From contig MPCU01000007.1 of assembly GCA_001874305.1 (NCBI GenBank), positions 62,001-126,000 of the forward strand: a stretch of DNA of 64,000 nt, in the 5' to 3' direction. The DNA comes from Bacteriovorax sp. MedPE-SWde. GTDB taxonomy: Bacteria; Bdellovibrionota; Bacteriovoracia; Bacteriovoracales; Bacteriovoracaceae. The notes below the pieces were generated by a model, which saw nothing but the letters and a program-made list of their open reading frames with translations, was not told where the DNA came from and searched no databases. Within the stretch, counting starts at the first letter, position 1; every line of letters starts with the position of its first letter. Positions 18,901 to 26,646 of the stretch are shown piece after piece. Made by a program: the position numbers and the translations under genes.

Positions 18901-19497
18901 TTATTCGTTAATTTTTATATGTTCAGACTTTAAGTCCTTAACAATTTTTGCGCCGATGATCTTGTAGTTATTTAAAGCAGAAAGTCTAAATCCATATCCA
19001 GTCACAGTAAGACCTTTTAACGTATCATTCATCAGAGTGAATACATTAAAGAATGTCTGTTCATAATCATTTATACCTTCTTTTCTCACCGTTACATGTA
19101 AGTGTGCCATCAAAATATTTAATGATTCCACTTGCTCCAGAAATAAATGTCTATACGCACCACCCTTATTTGCAGCATCTTCTATATTCTCTGCAATGTC
19201 ATATGCTCTCATTTCAAGTTCCACAAACTTATCAGATAAATCAGTAAGCCTAGACTCATCTCCTCCACCTGAAACTGCATAGACCTTAATCTTATCAAGT
19301 TGAGATCCCATAACATCGCCTGTCTTCATATATTTATTAAGCAAACGATCTGCTCCAGCTGATACTTCAGTATGTTTAGCTGCTTTTACTGCGGGATCAA
19401 AAAGGCCACCTACTTTTGAAGAAAATGTTTTTAGTATCCCCGCCTGCGACTGAGAAACAAATAGTAGTAGTGAAAATGTAAAAAGTAGTTTCTTCAT
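18901..19497 (-). CDS. Secreted protein of unknown function
   Basis: I do not recognise this 198-residue protein. It has a signal peptide (about 1-19, ending SQSQA), no lipobox and no later TM segment. The mature part looks mostly helical, with acidic and basic residues alternating around SDKFVELEMRAYDIAENIEDA. GAGGA lies 6 nt before the ATG. It is monocistronic, ends just after the tRNA terminator on the other strand, and belongs to the block of unknown exported proteins at 19-24 kb. Confidence 0.75.
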   Translation of the reverse strand: MKKLLFTFSLLLFVSQSQAGILKTFSSKVGGLFDPAVKAAKHTEVSAGADRLLNKYMKTGDVMGSQLDKIKVYAVSGGGDESRLTDLSDKFVELEMRAYDIAENIEDAANKGGAYRHLFLEQVESLNILMAHLHVTVRKEGINDYEQTFFNVFTLMNDTLKGLTVTGYGFRLSALNNYKIIGAKIVKDLKSEHIKINE

Positions 19498-19656
19498 AGA
19501 GTCCTCATCTAATAGTTTTTTAAGATTCTATCACTATGAGATCAGTCTATAGTTAAGTCAGAAACACTTACATACGATGTAAAAAGAATATACAGAAATC
19601 AGAGCTATAAACAGTTGTATTCATGCCTTGGGGACACCAACATCTGTCTTTTTACA

Positions 19657-21048
19657 TTAGCCGCCTAAAGTCATACCTCTACAACTAAGCCACTTAACTT
19701 CAACACTATGCTCTTTTGAAACACCAAACTCGGTTATGACTCTAATACGATGCCTACCGTTAGTAATGTCTTTAGTAAAATATCGAAATTTACCATTTCG
19801 AACAAGAACTTCTTCGGGGTCTGCTTCGTCAACACTTACGAGGACAATACCATCTTCATAATCAACTTTACCTGCTAGTTCATAAACACTTGGTCTAGAA
19901 CTACACCACCCATTCCCATTCAATTCGACAACACTTTCGCCATATAATTCTAAAAAAGAAGAAATCACTTCACGAGATTTACTATTACAATTTACCGAAC
20001 GAAGATAATTCATTTTACTTTTTTCGATGGAAATCTTGTCATAAATGTCAGACAAATTATAAACGACATCATTAAGATTTTGATATCTCTTATCAAGACT
20101 ACCTGTTGCCTTAATATCAGCATCAAACTTAAATAGAACATCATTATAGGCTTGTTGTAATTGCTGTGTCTCATACTTTGAGCTATCTGCAAGCTTCAAC
20201 CTTTCTTTGGTCTTATACATCAATTTATTATATATATTTTCTATTACTACAATTTTATTAACTAAATTTGATTCTTGTAACCTAGATTGTACTTTATTTC
20301 TTAGAGCTTGCCCCTGAAAGGAATTCGAAAAATATAAATCAAATAACGCATGAGAAATGCTATTAACTAACTCAGTCATAATTACAACTTTCTCAGTTGC
20401 CTTTTCATCGTAAAAAGCTTCTTTTGCTTTAGTTACGTCAAATACAACTTCCATCTTTTCAACACCAAAAGACAAGTATGTCGCCTTATCTATTCCAGAT
20501 TGAAAGACTTCAGATTCATTAAGATAAGAAATATTATTCTTAAATTTATCATTATCATAGTCCCATGAGTCTTCTACGAAACTCTTACTATTATTATATT
20601 TAAACACTTTAGAGTTCTCTACTATTCCCTCAGCATTAAGCGCCATTGATTCAAAGTAGAACTCACCCTTAGCATCACTAAAATCAGATTGATCATGTTG
20701 ATTCATACTTTTGTAACTTATAGAAGTTGCAAATATCGATTTAAGACAAACCGGCTTCACTTCACGAATAATGTCATAGCCAATTGCAGAATATACATCA
20801 ATTTGACTGTCATGATATGTTCTAATATTTATATTACTTATGTAACTTGAATTATGGCTCCAGGTAAGATCAAACCCATTACCACTTACTTTATCACCAA
20901 ATACAGATTTCCAAGTAATATCAAAATCTAAAAGTGCTCCCTGCCTCTTTAAAGAGGGCGAGTAAAGGTAAGAACTCTCAGCTGTTAAGAAGTTCGCATT
21001 TGAATAAATAGACATCAAAGTCGATATAATTATGACATTCATCTTCAT
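19657..21048 (-). CDS. Secreted protein of unknown function, third gene of a three-gene operon
   Basis: 463 residues, not recognised. It has a signal peptide (about 1-18). Residues 20-160 are rich in beta-type, Ser/Tyr/Asp-containing segments. Residues 230-340 appear helical and may form coiled coil (KTKERLKLADSSKYETQQLQ). A short Cys-bearing beta region ends the protein, with GKFRYFTKDITNGRHRIRVI resembling an Ig- or carbohydrate-binding-like strand pair; this last point is only an impression. AGGAG lies 8 nt before the ATG, and the stop of the preceding gene is 11 nt upstream. Confidence 0.7.
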   Translation of the reverse strand: MKMNVIIISTLMSIYSNANFLTAESSYLYSPSLKRQGALLDFDITWKSVFGDKVSGNGFDLTWSHNSSYISNINIRTYHDSQIDVYSAIGYDIIREVKPVCLKSIFATSISYKSMNQHDQSDFSDAKGEFYFESMALNAEGIVENSKVFKYNNSKSFVEDSWDYDNDKFKNNISYLNESEVFQSGIDKATYLSFGVEKMEVVFDVTKAKEAFYDEKATEKVVIMTELVNSISHALFDLYFSNSFQGQALRNKVQSRLQESNLVNKIVVIENIYNKLMYKTKERLKLADSSKYETQQLQQAYNDVLFKFDADIKATGSLDKRYQNLNDVVYNLSDIYDKISIEKSKMNYLRSVNCNSKSREVISSFLELYGESVVELNGNGWCSSRPSVYELAGKVDYEDGIVLVSVDEADPEEVLVRNGKFRYFTKDITNGRHRIRVITEFGVSKEHSVEVKWLSCRGMTLGG

Positions 21049-21059
21049 AGTGAGTTCTC

Positions 21060-22301
21060 CTAAAAATCCATTAAGTCATCAAAAGTATCAGTAGAGTCAT
21101 CAACATTCCCTAGTAATTCATCAATTGACTCAAATCCCTTCCACTTCAAATAGACAGGAAACGGCATGACAACTTGATCAAAAGCAACTTTATTCATGTC
21201 CTGATTCTTCATAAAGAGTTTTATCCAAGCGTAGTCAGGTTTTTCACTCTCAAGTTCATCGAATAATTTTTGGTGAAATTGAAATCCACTTGCAGCCATC
21301 TTTTCATTTAACAATGTCGCAATCTCTTTAACTTGTTCTTGAGATAGGTTTGAATTATTAACCAATAATGCCGTAGGTATTACATTCTCTACTTTTACAA
21401 TCTTTTCTGACAGAAACTCTGTCTCAGTCGAATACAATTGATTAAAATCAATATGGACATTATTTACTATTGAACGGATAGAGTAGAAATCTGAAATTTG
21501 AAACATTAAAAGGATTAAATTACTTCGTATTTCCTGAGAGATATCCTTATGTACGAGGAATCTTTTATTAAATAATTCATCACCATGATTAGCAACAAGT
21601 GATTGAATGATACGATCATCTAGCATGAAAAGAATTTTTTCATTTAGAGCAAGAAAATCGTCTTCAATGATAAAAGGAATACCTCCTCTTTTTACAAAGT
21701 GAGAACATAATTTATAGCTAGCTCCTGAGTCTATATTTGAGCATGCATAAGCTGAAGCAATATTTAACTTCTTCTGTGTCTTAAAAAGGTTACTTATATC
21801 GTCCAGCTTATATTCTTTAAAACCACCAATATATGCAGGTAAGATTCCTTTTAGCATAGAGAAATTAGAATTATAAAGAGTCCCTTCTATGCAATTTGTT
21901 CTATTAACAAGATGACTATTAATATCGAATTTTCTTAATTTAGAAAATGTTAACATATTATAATAAACTCTTTTTGCACCTGGGATGAAGCATGACAGTC
22001 CTAAAAGATCGAGCTCAATATCATTTCCCATATAGGCCATAGCATCTAACCCTCTTCCTTCTTTGACATAGAAGTACTGATTAGCAGCTTGCTTATTAAG
22101 AGCATTAATTTTTGGATTTTTTATAATAAGTTCTTTAAATTCGTCTGCACTAAATACAATCTTATTATCAAAACTCTTATAACTAACAATTCGACTAGCA
22201 ACGTCGTCAGTTTTCCCCATAAGTAATTCGAGCACATCAAGCTGGTTTGGTGACGCGAGAGTTAACAAATTTATTAAAGACAAGAAAATTAGTTTTTTCA
22301 T
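21060..22301 (-). CDS. Secreted protein of unknown function, second gene of the operon
   Basis: About 413 residues, not recognised. I take the ATG at 22301 as the start: GAGGAG, embedded in the last codons of the preceding gene, stands 7 nt before it, whereas the in-frame GTG at 22316 has no such site. The protein begins with a signal peptide (MKKLIFLSLINLLTLA). The body is largely helical with scattered cysteines and ends in an acidic stretch (DDSTDTFDDLMDF). The tight spacing to both neighbours implies co-expression. Confidence 0.7.
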   Translation of the reverse strand: MKKLIFLSLINLLTLASPNQLDVLELLMGKTDDVASRIVSYKSFDNKIVFSADEFKELIIKNPKINALNKQAANQYFYVKEGRGLDAMAYMGNDIELDLLGLSCFIPGAKRVYYNMLTFSKLRKFDINSHLVNRTNCIEGTLYNSNFSMLKGILPAYIGGFKEYKLDDISNLFKTQKKLNIASAYACSNIDSGASYKLCSHFVKRGGIPFIIEDDFLALNEKILFMLDDRIIQSLVANHGDELFNKRFLVHKDISQEIRSNLILLMFQISDFYSIRSIVNNVHIDFNQLYSTETEFLSEKIVKVENVIPTALLVNNSNLSQEQVKEIATLLNEKMAASGFQFHQKLFDELESEKPDYAWIKLFMKNQDMNKVAFDQVVMPFPVYLKWKGFESIDELLGNVDDSTDTFDDLMDF

Positions 22302-22302
22302 T

Positions 22303-23817
22303 CTATAACTCCTCACCTTGATATGACAATTTCACTTTGGCACGCCCCTTTTTATAACAGCTTCTCATTGAAAACCTTACTTTTACACTTTCTAAACTTG
22401 GAATTCTAAAAGTTTCAGTACTCTTGTGTTTGCCATTTTTCTTGTAGCAGTGCATTTTTACATCGATTGGTGTATTTAAGTTATTCTTTAAAAGTTTACC
22501 ACTATCTAAAACATCAACAATATTTCCAAGTTTAAATGCTGCACTAACTTGTGAGTTACCAAATGTATCATTATATATCTTTGTTAAAGTCTTAGCGTTA
22601 AGCTTCCTATAGATCAGATAAGCAAAGCTTTGTTTTAATAATTTTGTTACATTATTTTCGGCCTTGTAAGAAAGAGTCATGACCTTGGCAAAAACAATTC
22701 TATAGCGATCCGATACCTCTTCATCAACATTTTCTAGCCCTTCAAATAAAATATTTAGATCTGATTCTTCTAATGACGACAACTCTTTTGCATAGGCCAT
22801 AAGTCTTAAACGATATTTCCAAAGTTGTGTATCTTCACCATTTGAATATTGATTCAGGCCATCGAGATAGATACCATTAAACACTGGTCCACTAATACTG
22901 TGGTCGGCCATTGCATTTGAATATCTATATGGCTCAATCTTTTCCTCGGCCATAGATATAATATAATCATCTCTTAGTTTTATAAGGAAAGTTCTTAGTT
23001 CACTAGATGTGCTATAGTCATTAATAGATTTACTTAATTCTGATAACACATGATTCATCAAGTAAAAATCAGTATCATTTAAGGATTGTTCAAAGAATTT
23101 ACTATATTCTTTATCAAGTGATGAAAATACAAGTTTATTAGGAAACCTATGGAAAGCATCCTTTATCCAATCATACTTACCATTTTTAGTGATGAAATCA
23201 TACGAAGATAAATTTCCCACGGTCCACCCTAAATTTCCACCTCTATCTAAAGCAATATTAAAGCAGGCCTTACAGTCACCATAAACAGAATAATACTGAA
23301 CTTTATAAGCTGATTTTTTGTATTTCTCTAGTAGTTTCCCAATAACCCTCAAGCTCTTATTAGCTATAACTTGTCTTATAATTTTCTCATTGTCTTCAAA
23401 ACTACCACTTAAGTCTACTGTTCCAAGATATAAGAATTGACTAATTTCTTGCGGATCATTTTTTAGTTTATCTAGGATAAACTTCGAACTTAAATACTGT
23501 CCATTAGCATTTAACAAAGTAAGTGTTACGTTCAAAGCAGCATGATTAGTGACACGATTGAAGACTATTTCAGATATATTATAACCATCATGATCAACAC
23601 CATTTATCTTATAAATGTCGACTCCGGCTGACTTCAAGTCACCTACTAAAGAGTAAGACTCTCCATCATTAACCTTCTTGATATAGTGGTTAATCTTTTT
23701 CATTGTCAAAACGTCTATATAATTTCGATTAAAATTAATTGTGTCTGCGAAAATCGATGAAGTAGTAACAATTAGTACAAATATAAGTAGATGCTTAACA
23801 AATCTTTGCATGAACAT
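22303..23817 (-). CDS. Secreted protein of unknown function, first gene of the operon
   Basis: 504 residues, not recognised. It has a signal peptide (about 1-24, ending SSIFA). GGAG stands 5 nt before the first ATG. Segments such as DLKSAGVDIYKINGVDHDGYN and NHAALNVTLTLLNANGQYL loosely resemble ankyrin repeats, which would make it a binding protein, but the repeats are too degenerate to count. A C-x2-C pair (GDCKACF) lies near residue 182. The last 50 residues look like a beta domain with cysteines. Its stop codon lies next to the following gene's start. Confidence 0.7.
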   Translation of the reverse strand: MFMQRFVKHLLIFVLIVTTSSIFADTINFNRNYIDVLTMKKINHYIKKVNDGESYSLVGDLKSAGVDIYKINGVDHDGYNISEIVFNRVTNHAALNVTLTLLNANGQYLSSKFILDKLKNDPQEISQFLYLGTVDLSGSFEDNEKIIRQVIANKSLRVIGKLLEKYKKSAYKVQYYSVYGDCKACFNIALDRGGNLGWTVGNLSSYDFITKNGKYDWIKDAFHRFPNKLVFSSLDKEYSKFFEQSLNDTDFYLMNHVLSELSKSINDYSTSSELRTFLIKLRDDYIISMAEEKIEPYRYSNAMADHSISGPVFNGIYLDGLNQYSNGEDTQLWKYRLRLMAYAKELSSLEESDLNILFEGLENVDEEVSDRYRIVFAKVMTLSYKAENNVTKLLKQSFAYLIYRKLNAKTLTKIYNDTFGNSQVSAAFKLGNIVDVLDSGKLLKNNLNTPIDVKMHCYKKNGKHKSTETFRIPSLESVKVRFSMRSCYKKGRAKVKLSYQGEEL

Positions 23818-23961: not shown

Positions 23962-23981
23962 ACGATACAGACGCGCGTACC
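23962..23981 (+). repeat. GC-rich 20-bp direct repeat, copy 1
   Basis: ACGATACAGACGCGCGTACC. It matches the copy at 24672-24691 at 19 of 20 positions, in the same orientation. The core ACGCGCGT is palindromic. It overlaps the expected -35 region of the small lipoprotein gene at 24004. The composition is strikingly GC-rich for this window. Confidence 0.85.
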
Positions 23982-23992
23982 GACTCATATGA

Positions 23993-24004
23993 TATAATAA
24001 AGTA
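23993..24004 (+). promoter_or_regulatory. -10 box placed for a leaderless transcript
   Basis: TATAAT at 23993-23998 is followed by 5 nt (AAAGT) and the ATG at 24004. No Shine-Dalgarno sequence exists. The -35 position holds GACGCG from the 20-bp repeat, a poor -35, so an activator at the repeat is conceivable. Confidence 0.55.
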
Positions 24005-24441
24005 TGAGACTACTTATTATAATCCTATTCATAAGTTGTTCTTCACCCACGCCTCTCTCTACTAAGAAAGTTAATCTCGCTATATTTGATAAAGTCATCA
24101 ACAGCAATTCTTATGGTGGTATTACTCAGGATACGATCAACATCATAAGTATTTCTCCAAAAGGGGAATTTCCAATCTCTAGGATAAGAAGATTTCATAG
24201 AAGATACGATTTTAAAGTAAAGCTCACATTTAATCAGGATTGTTATCAATTAGGCGACACTTGTTTAAGCCTAAGAACATATCAAGGAATATCGAATAAA
24301 GAGATATACAGGCTTAGAAGCAAAGATGAAGTCATAGAGAGAAACTACTTTATATCATTTATTAAAACGGCAGAAGGCTGGGCACCATATGACTTAAGTA
24401 AAAATGTAGAGAAAGATAGAAAACCATCTTCACAGCATTGA
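24004..24441 (+). CDS. Small putative lipoprotein of unknown function
   Basis: 145 residues, not recognised. A very short lipoprotein signal runs MRLLIIILFISC, with lipobox Cys at 12, followed by SSPTPLSTKK. The mature part is basic, with a C-x6-C pair (CYQLGDTC) that could form a disulfide. The start has no Shine-Dalgarno sequence and sits 5 nt after a perfect TATAAT. It is the first gene of a two-gene cassette bracketed by 20-bp direct repeats at 23962 and 24672. Confidence 0.7.
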   Translation: MRLLIIILFISCSSPTPLSTKKVNLAIFDKVINSNSYGGITQDTINIISISPKGEFPISRIRRFHRRYDFKVKLTFNQDCYQLGDTCLSLRTYQGISNKEIYRLRSKDEVIERNYFISFIKTAEGWAPYDLSKNVEKDRKPSSQH

Positions 24442-24450
24442 GAGGATTTT

Positions 24451-24654
24451 ATGAGCACAAAGAGAAATAATGTAAATTACATTAATCACAAGAAAGAACT
24501 TCATCATGGCCACCATGGTCCACATAGTTCTCCTCAAGAGACTAGAGCTAAGCGTACAAAGAGATCAAAGAAATTTGTCTTCATAAGAGAGACTCATGCG
24601 GATATTAGAAATGTTAAGTACTTTGGGGTGAGATTTATTCCATTTATTAACTAG
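24451..24654 (+). CDS. Small basic His-rich protein of unknown function
   Basis: 67 residues, not recognised. It is strongly basic, with a His-rich stretch (HHGHHGPH) near 18-26 and a Lys/Arg block (AKRTKRSKK), then an aromatic C terminus. Such a composition could bind nucleic acid or metal, but nothing proves it. GAGAGGA lies about 5 nt before the ATG, 9 nt after the lipoprotein stop, so the two form an operon. The second 20-bp repeat begins 17 nt past its stop. Confidence 0.6.
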   Translation: MSTKRNNVNYINHKKELHHGHHGPHSSPQETRAKRTKRSKKFVFIRETHADIRNVKYFGVRFIPFIN

Positions 24655-24671
24655 TATAAGTAATCGAATTA

Positions 24672-24691
24672 ACGATACGGACGCGCGTACC
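24672..24691 (+). repeat. GC-rich 20-bp direct repeat, copy 2
   Basis: ACGATACGGACGCGCGTACC, 19 of 20 identical to the copy at 23962-23981, 710 nt apart and in the same orientation. I saw no third copy in the window. Confidence 0.85.
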
Positions 24692-24692
24692 T

Positions 24693-24714
24693 AAAAAGGG
24701 CCTGAAGAGGCCCT
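24693..24714. terminator. Terminator hairpin, better placed for the minus strand
   Basis: AGGGCC (24697-24702) pairs with GGCCCT (24709-24714) around a 6-nt loop. On the minus strand it is followed by TTTTT, so it can end the transcript carrying the 27-codon ORF at 24744-24827. On the plus strand it may also slow transcription after the cassette. Confidence 0.7.
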
Positions 24715-24996: not shown

Positions 24997-26601
24997 TTAC
25001 CAGTCGATTGGGAAGTAATCTTTCAGGAACTTACCACACCAGTGCTTACCAGTATTGATTCCATCAATAAATGGGTCACAAACTCTCGCCGCACCATCAA
25101 CAATATCTAGAGGTGGTTGGAAATCGTGTAGATTTTCTTTTCTCTTCGCTAGCTCAACTGGATCCTCATCTGTAACCCAACCTGTATCAACAGCATTCAT
25201 GTAAATACCGTCTTTAGCAAACTCTCCCGCAGAAGTATGTGTCAGCATATTAAGAGCGGCCTTTGCCATATTTGTATGAGGATGGCGTGCTTCTTTTTTA
25301 AAGCGGTGAAACTTTCCTTCCATCGCAGTAACGTTAACAATATGTTTTTTCCCTGTATTATCTCGCTTCATCATTGGAGCAAGTTTATTACAAAGAACGA
25401 ATGGTGCAATTGCATTCACTAGTTGAACCTCAACCATTTCAGGAGTGTTTATCTCCCCTAGCTTTAATCTCCAACTATTAGTCTTTCTTAAATCGACTTG
25501 TTGTAAATCAACATCAAGCTCACCCTTTGGAAAGATTTCCTGAGTAACAAGAGAGTCATCAATTGTATAAGGGATTTGTGAAAGCTTAGCTGATTCGCGA
25601 AGACCAAGCCCTGGTGCATTTTGCTTATGCCATGAAACAGGTAGAGCTTCCGTGTCAGCACTTCCAACAACATCACCATCGGCCTTACTTAATTCAATAA
25701 GACAACCCTGGTGTCTTTCTAGAAGCATTTGTGCATGCTCAGGAAGATCGGCCATATGTCTTGCCTCTGCTTCCATTAAGTGAGCATAGAATCCCGGAGG
25801 TCTTCTCACTGTTTGAGCGGCATTATTAATTAAGATATCTAAACGATCATATGTTGATTCAATATAGTTACAAAATAATTCAACAGATGGTGTGTGACGT
25901 AAATCAAGACCATGAATATGAAGTCTATGACCCCATTCTTTAAAATCTTCTTCTTTTCCATATCTAATGGCAGAGTCAACAGGAAAACGAGTTGTCGCAA
26001 TAACAGTTGCACCAGATCTCAACATCATGAGAGTTGAGTGATAGCCAATTTTAAGTCTTGAACCAGTGATTAGAGCAACCTGTCCCGTAAGGTCAGTTGT
26101 CTGGTGTCTCTTATAATAATTCAAGTCACCACAAGGAATACACATCGTATCGTAGAAGTGGTGAAGCTTAGTAAATTCATCCTTACAGACGTAGCAATTT
26201 CTTGCCTTATTTAATTCAGGTTGTTCACTATTTAACGACTCTTGATCAACACCAATAAGTTTAGGTGCAACAAAGACAGAGTCTTCTCTGGCAGACCTAA
26301 TTCCAGTTGTTCCTCTGGCCACTCTATCTTGGTGAGTCGTTTTCTTCTTTCTTATTCTCTTTACGTCTTTTTGACGCTTCTTGATTTCTTTTCTATCTGG
26401 TCTTGATAGTTGCCCTGAAAGCTTGAGAAGTTTCACGCGATCTTCTTCACTGAGATGAACAAGCTGTTCACTATTTTCAACAAATACTTCAAGAGTATTA
26501 AGCATATTACTTAATTCAGCTGGAGAAAATTTATGTTGAAGTTCATCGAGATATGTCTCGTGTGTATTAACAACTGTTTCTTGATCTTTAGTATCGCTCA
26601 T
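24997..26601 (-). CDS. SDR-fold oxidoreductase-like protein with N-terminal zinc ribbon
   Basis: About 534 residues from the ATG at 26601, chosen because AAGGA lies 8 nt upstream; the frame stays open to 26637. Order: a charged N-terminal region ([14 protein letters not shown] near 70-85), a C-x2-C...C-x2-C zinc-ribbon candidate (CYVC and CIPC), then an SDR Rossmann domain ([38 protein letters not shown]). At the YxxxK position the Lys is kept (near 447) but the catalytic Tyr is replaced by Thr, and the Ser site reads NVTAMEG. It may therefore bind nucleotide without classical SDR catalysis. Confidence 0.8.
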
Positions 26602-26646
26602 TCTTGCTTCCTTAGGGTTTGGTGCCCAATTTAGCAAAAGTCGCGC

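Follow-up and report, generated by a model that had tools for sequence, protein, structure and literature searches.

TIRtrons have been described as RAYT-like genes that lie between unrelated inverted repeats forming small dispersed families, a description that drew on a small set of genomes (PMC3733652). A C-terminal HTH in subclass 2.1 and the motif GGGGWSAS in many of the terminal inverted repeats are common, not universal, features of these systems (PMC3733652; PMC6006769), and a later survey placed most TIRYTs in subclass 2.1, in whose vicinity it reported no REP-like sequences (PMC6006769). The classical RAYT acts on single-stranded repeat DNA, which it cleaves at a CT dinucleotide nearby (PMC8266576). 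A literature search on RAYTs in Bdellovibrio or Bacteriovorax yielded no relevant paper.

The locus considered here lies in a stretch of 64,000 nucleotides from Bacteriovorax sp. MedPE-SWde (the window; GC content 36%), in which a first-pass annotation had described two copies of a GC-rich 20-mer enclosing a short operon. Both 20-mers are confirmed at 23962-23981 and 24672-24691, in direct orientation, 710 nt apart and with a single A/G difference, and one complete two-gene operon indeed lies between them, consisting of a lipoprotein-like gene (24004-24441, plus strand, 145 aa, with an ISC-SS lipobox and no Pfam match) and an open reading frame for a His-rich, basic protein (24451-24654, plus strand, 67 aa, no significant Pfam match). 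A scan of the window allowing up to three mismatches returned no match to the 20-mer beyond these two, with zero expected from shuffles. Alignment of the copies revealed a longer repeat, a 35-nt element termed type A, of which the 20-mer forms the outer part. On the other strand the element reads GGTACGCGCGTCC-N-TATCGTGA-WTTCAA-N4-TTA; blocks of conserved sequence span positions 1-13, 15-22, 24-28 and 33-35, and a 13-nt core is highly uniform across all type A copies. Copy 1 (GGTACGCGCGTCTGTATCGTGAAATCAGCCTGTTA), the inner part of which extends beyond the 20-mer, runs on the minus strand from 23981 down to 23947, and copy 2 (GGTACGCGCGTCCGTATCGTTAATTCGATTACTTA) runs on the same strand from 24691 down to 24657. 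Copy 2 starts 2 nt past the stop codon of 24451-24654 and adjoins the T-tract of a terminator-like hairpin on the minus strand (24697-24714), which probably ends the minus-strand gene at 24997-26637. The palindromic core ACGCGCGT pointed out in the first-pass annotation was rejected as the key feature of the repeat, since it is not kept in the version of the element found in the same genus, which reads AC[C/T]CGCGT.

The two copies in the window are not an isolated pair, as became clear from the whole-genome search that the first-pass annotation had proposed: they are two of 15. Fourteen copies of the 20-mer with up to three mismatches were found in the 3.76-Mb genome, together with one more diverged copy on contig C10, and a pattern search with the extended consensus retrieved exactly the same 15, each with at most one mismatch where three were allowed. 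No intermediate or further type A copy was found in the genome out to three mismatches, and the type A family is therefore homogeneous. In four neighbouring pairs the two copies lie within 1 kb of each other, compared with 0.06 such pairs expected. Three of these are inverted and face outward, namely a unit containing a transposase gene and two doublets measuring 211 and 241 nt across, while the pair in the window is the sole direct one among the four; the pairs other than that in the window enclose either the transposase gene or some 170-200 nt with no gene listed in full. No target-site duplications around the doublets were obvious by eye. Type A copies are found between genes of every relative orientation (convergent, tandem and divergent); the sites between convergent genes are those on C4, C6, C13-54k and C15 and that of window copy 2. 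Several copies begin at a TAG stop codon or no more than 2 nt from one (L037:4798, L038:4744, L039:4617, L045:4979 and window 24652-24657), a placement that suggests either preferred insertion there or selection against copies at other sites. Elsewhere, the 20-mer gave only four single matches in GTDB contigs, a set that may lack records close to this genome; all four are in unrelated MAGs and of a kind that chance could produce in so large a collection.

The inverted type A pair on contig C6 brackets a single open reading frame on the minus strand (L039:4645-5286), situated outside the window at about 35.6-36.3 kb of that contig (G000:C6). The two repeats form the outward-facing ends of the unit, with GGTACG outermost, and the sequence flanking the gene on both sides, AGGTACGCGCGTCC..TATCGT..CTTA, is not of the GTAG REP type. 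The encoded protein is intact, matches PF01797 (Y1_Tnp) in a Pfam scan with an E-value of 5.3e-10, and carries the HuH motif NHYH and the tyrosine motif YIYQNP. A profile built from its relatives hits 4er8, a solved TnpA-REP structure (2.2e-9). Judged by these sequence features, the gene is a Y1 tyrosine transposase of the RAYT/TIRYT type; since the protein scores 52 bits against a cut-off of 80 with the NCBI model REP_Tyr_transpos, it has to be regarded as a divergent relative. A C-terminal HTH was not matched in the Pfam scan (E up to 1).

We consider it highly probable that the 20-mer represents the conserved portion of a 35-nt family of terminal inverted repeats belonging to a TIRtron, with the operon as a bystander. 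This reading is based on the copy number, on the inverted pairing around the transposase gene, on the one-to-one matching of repeats and transposases across genomes, and on repeat types that track the transposase tree. A TIRtron unit consists of a RAYT-like Y1 HuH tyrosine transposase between its own repeats in inverted orientation. On the model of RAYT/REP systems, the transposase would recognize the repeat as single-stranded DNA, nick beside it and join it elsewhere, and in this way single copies and inverted doublets would be scattered through intergenic DNA; two copies may have landed on either side of the lipoprotein operon, or one copy may have landed and been duplicated locally. The chemistry is borrowed from the literature on TnpA-REP (PMC8266576), and the direction of mobilization and the descent of the window copies from the C6 enzyme are likewise presumed. 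Rather than bordering a two-gene cassette, the repeats in the window are thus probably small scars of mobile DNA. In favor of the TIRtron reading are the 15 homogeneous copies, the inverted pair on C6, the close pairs, and the type-specific dispersal and family statistics given below. Against it count the direct orientation of the pair in the window, which is not an inverted doublet, the low score with REP_Tyr_transpos, three related genes in the genus without repeats on both sides (L070, L074 and L075), and the lack of a stable hairpin in type A, as opposed to the hairpin substrates of known RAYTs.

With regard to folding, the mean z-score over the 15 type A copies is +0.6, which is no better than that of shuffles, and type A was consequently rejected as a stable hairpin, whereas a second repeat, type B (GGTGCcatGCACC), does form a hairpin. 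A single type A copy (L008, around 1450-1500; G000:C3:31.8 kb) carries a hairpin of 11 perfectly paired bp, GATTACAGGAT..ATCCTGTAATC, which starts within the element (z -4.6); the other type A copies are without one. The missing GT[A/G]G head, together with folding that does not surpass that of shuffles, excludes type A repeats from the classical REPs. The system shares with RAYT/REP/REPIN systems (PMC2817692; PMC8266576) a transposase gene between inverted repeats, dispersed extragenic repeats, inverted doublets and coevolution of repeat and transposase, but differs from them in the missing head and the missing stable palindrome and in its 15 copies instead of more than 100. With IS200/IS605 elements it has the Y1 HuH transposase fold (PF01797) in common; however, the motif here is of the YxxNP and not the YxxxQ type, the genes occur as single, divergent copies, no tnpB was seen, and the score with NF033573 is far below the cut-off. 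The match with published TIRtrons is better than that with the classical REP system: a RAYT-like Y1 transposase is combined with flanking inverted repeats not of the GTAG type and with moderately abundant dispersed families of single, dimeric or grouped copies, although the repeats lack GGGGWSAS, mostly start with GGT[A/G/T]C at their outer ends, and are not accompanied by a match for the C-terminal HTH.

Six genomes of the genus contain 12 transposase genes of this type. Clear flanking inverted repeats were found at nine, with outer ends that almost always read GGT[A/G]C or GGTATC; for the three genes named above, no repeats on both sides were found. Seven repeat types occur in the genus, and each is dispersed only where its own transposase is present, with one exception. 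Type B (GGTGCCATGC..) has three copies in the genome studied here, 18 in G002 and 16 in G004, and all three genomes hold the matching gene. Pattern searches located the AGGTACGTCGATA type in G002 only, AGGTACCAGTATC in G004 only, AGGTATCCGTTTAC and GGTGCCANCAGACTT in G005 only and GGTACGTRCAGACTA in G001 only. The exception is A', a sister version of type A in G004 (ACGAAAAGGACCCGCGTACC, at least 11 core matches), of which G002 has one copy; no cognate transposase for it was found in the incomplete assembly of G004 (78%). The sister version also forms inverted doublets in G004, for example at C106:305-414, C442:9867-9976 and C8:6721-6787. A second, divergent transposase gene of the same kind is encoded in the genome studied here (L098; G000:C10:396573-397163) and is flanked by the hairpin-forming type B repeats.

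In the bacterial family as a whole, 44 of 76 genomes carry such a transposase gene. Among the 37 genes with enough flanking sequence, 26 have a flanking inverted repeat above the 95th percentile of a null derived from mismatched pairings (about two expected), and 10 exceed the largest null value. In a maximum-likelihood tree, the GTGCCATG type falls within one well-supported clade and the GGTACGCG type within another. Repeat-type labels, assigned by eye and in the case of L103 from the downstream repeats only, change eight times on this tree, whereas 300 shuffles of the labels needed 14.2 changes on average and never fewer than 10; the repeat type follows the transposase tree. The system is ordinary in kind, yet its pairing of repeat and transposase is unusually clean. 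One bacterial family here offers dozens of transposases with matched, distinct and countable repeats, which makes it well suited to the study of coevolution between a domesticated-type transposase and its repeats. A broader proposal, namely that a distinct RAYT-like branch widespread in the family mobilizes linear, tripartite 35-nt repeats (a GGTNC head, a TATCGTGA-like middle and a TTA tail) without a hairpin and switches specificity as the enzyme diverges, is tentative and, in our view, rather unlikely to hold.

It has also been considered that the repeat was adopted for a host function, such as transcription termination, protection of mRNA 3' ends or chromosome organization. Several copies adjoin stop codons or terminators, as such a role would have it, but copies are few, their sequence is restricted to the species and type A has no stable hairpin, so that this explanation is improbable.

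Very improbable is an operator role, in which copy 1 would control the lipoprotein operon through an overlap with the -35 region and the 15 copies would constitute a regulon. Copy 1 sits 11 nt upstream of a TATAAT-like box (23993-23998), and the core is highly uniform in every copy, both of which speak for such a role. The overlap with the -35 area pointed out in the first-pass annotation fits this box in its geometry; the hexamer at the -35 position, GACGCG, is however no -35 box, and a promoter scan reported no promoter there. Copy placement ignores promoters in all three kinds of intergenic region, with many copies lying between convergent genes or next to stop codons, inverted pairs flank the transposase gene, and other transposases have other repeats. 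The idea of a regulon was rejected because the copy positions do not fit.

The lipoprotein operon itself is most likely a bystander. G004 possesses a lipoprotein ortholog (48% identity) next to the same aldehyde-dehydrogenase-type neighbor as in the window, and this syntenic locus contains no repeat of type A, B or C and no His-rich gene, which also speaks against an operator. In G003 the dehydrogenase neighbor is present and the lipoprotein gene is absent, and this genome therefore provides no empty-site comparison. The 8-mer ACTCATAT, just downstream of copy 1, was also noticed by eye upstream of the G004 lipoprotein gene; this would agree with insertion on the upstream side of a promoter region already in place, a single 8-mer being weak evidence. 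It is extremely improbable that the repeats delimit a two-gene cassette that is mobile or was integrated site-specifically: two direct copies do enclose exactly one operon, and this operon is missing from most relatives, but gene content does not track the repeats in G004, no other pair of copies encloses such genes, an integrase is absent, and the elements are scattered as single copies. Of the recombination or integration boundary proposed earlier, the link to DNA mobility stands, in the sense that repeats of this type form the ends of a unit bearing a transposase, while the cassette border does not, the 13 other copies being unrelated to any such cassette. The case is also a caution against taking short GC-rich repeats on either side of an operon for operators or cassette ends. 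On the minus strand of the window, 18901-23817 holds a run of four genes for proteins of 198-504 aa, of which the one scanned (22303-23817) gave no significant Pfam match and three have signal-peptide-like starts.
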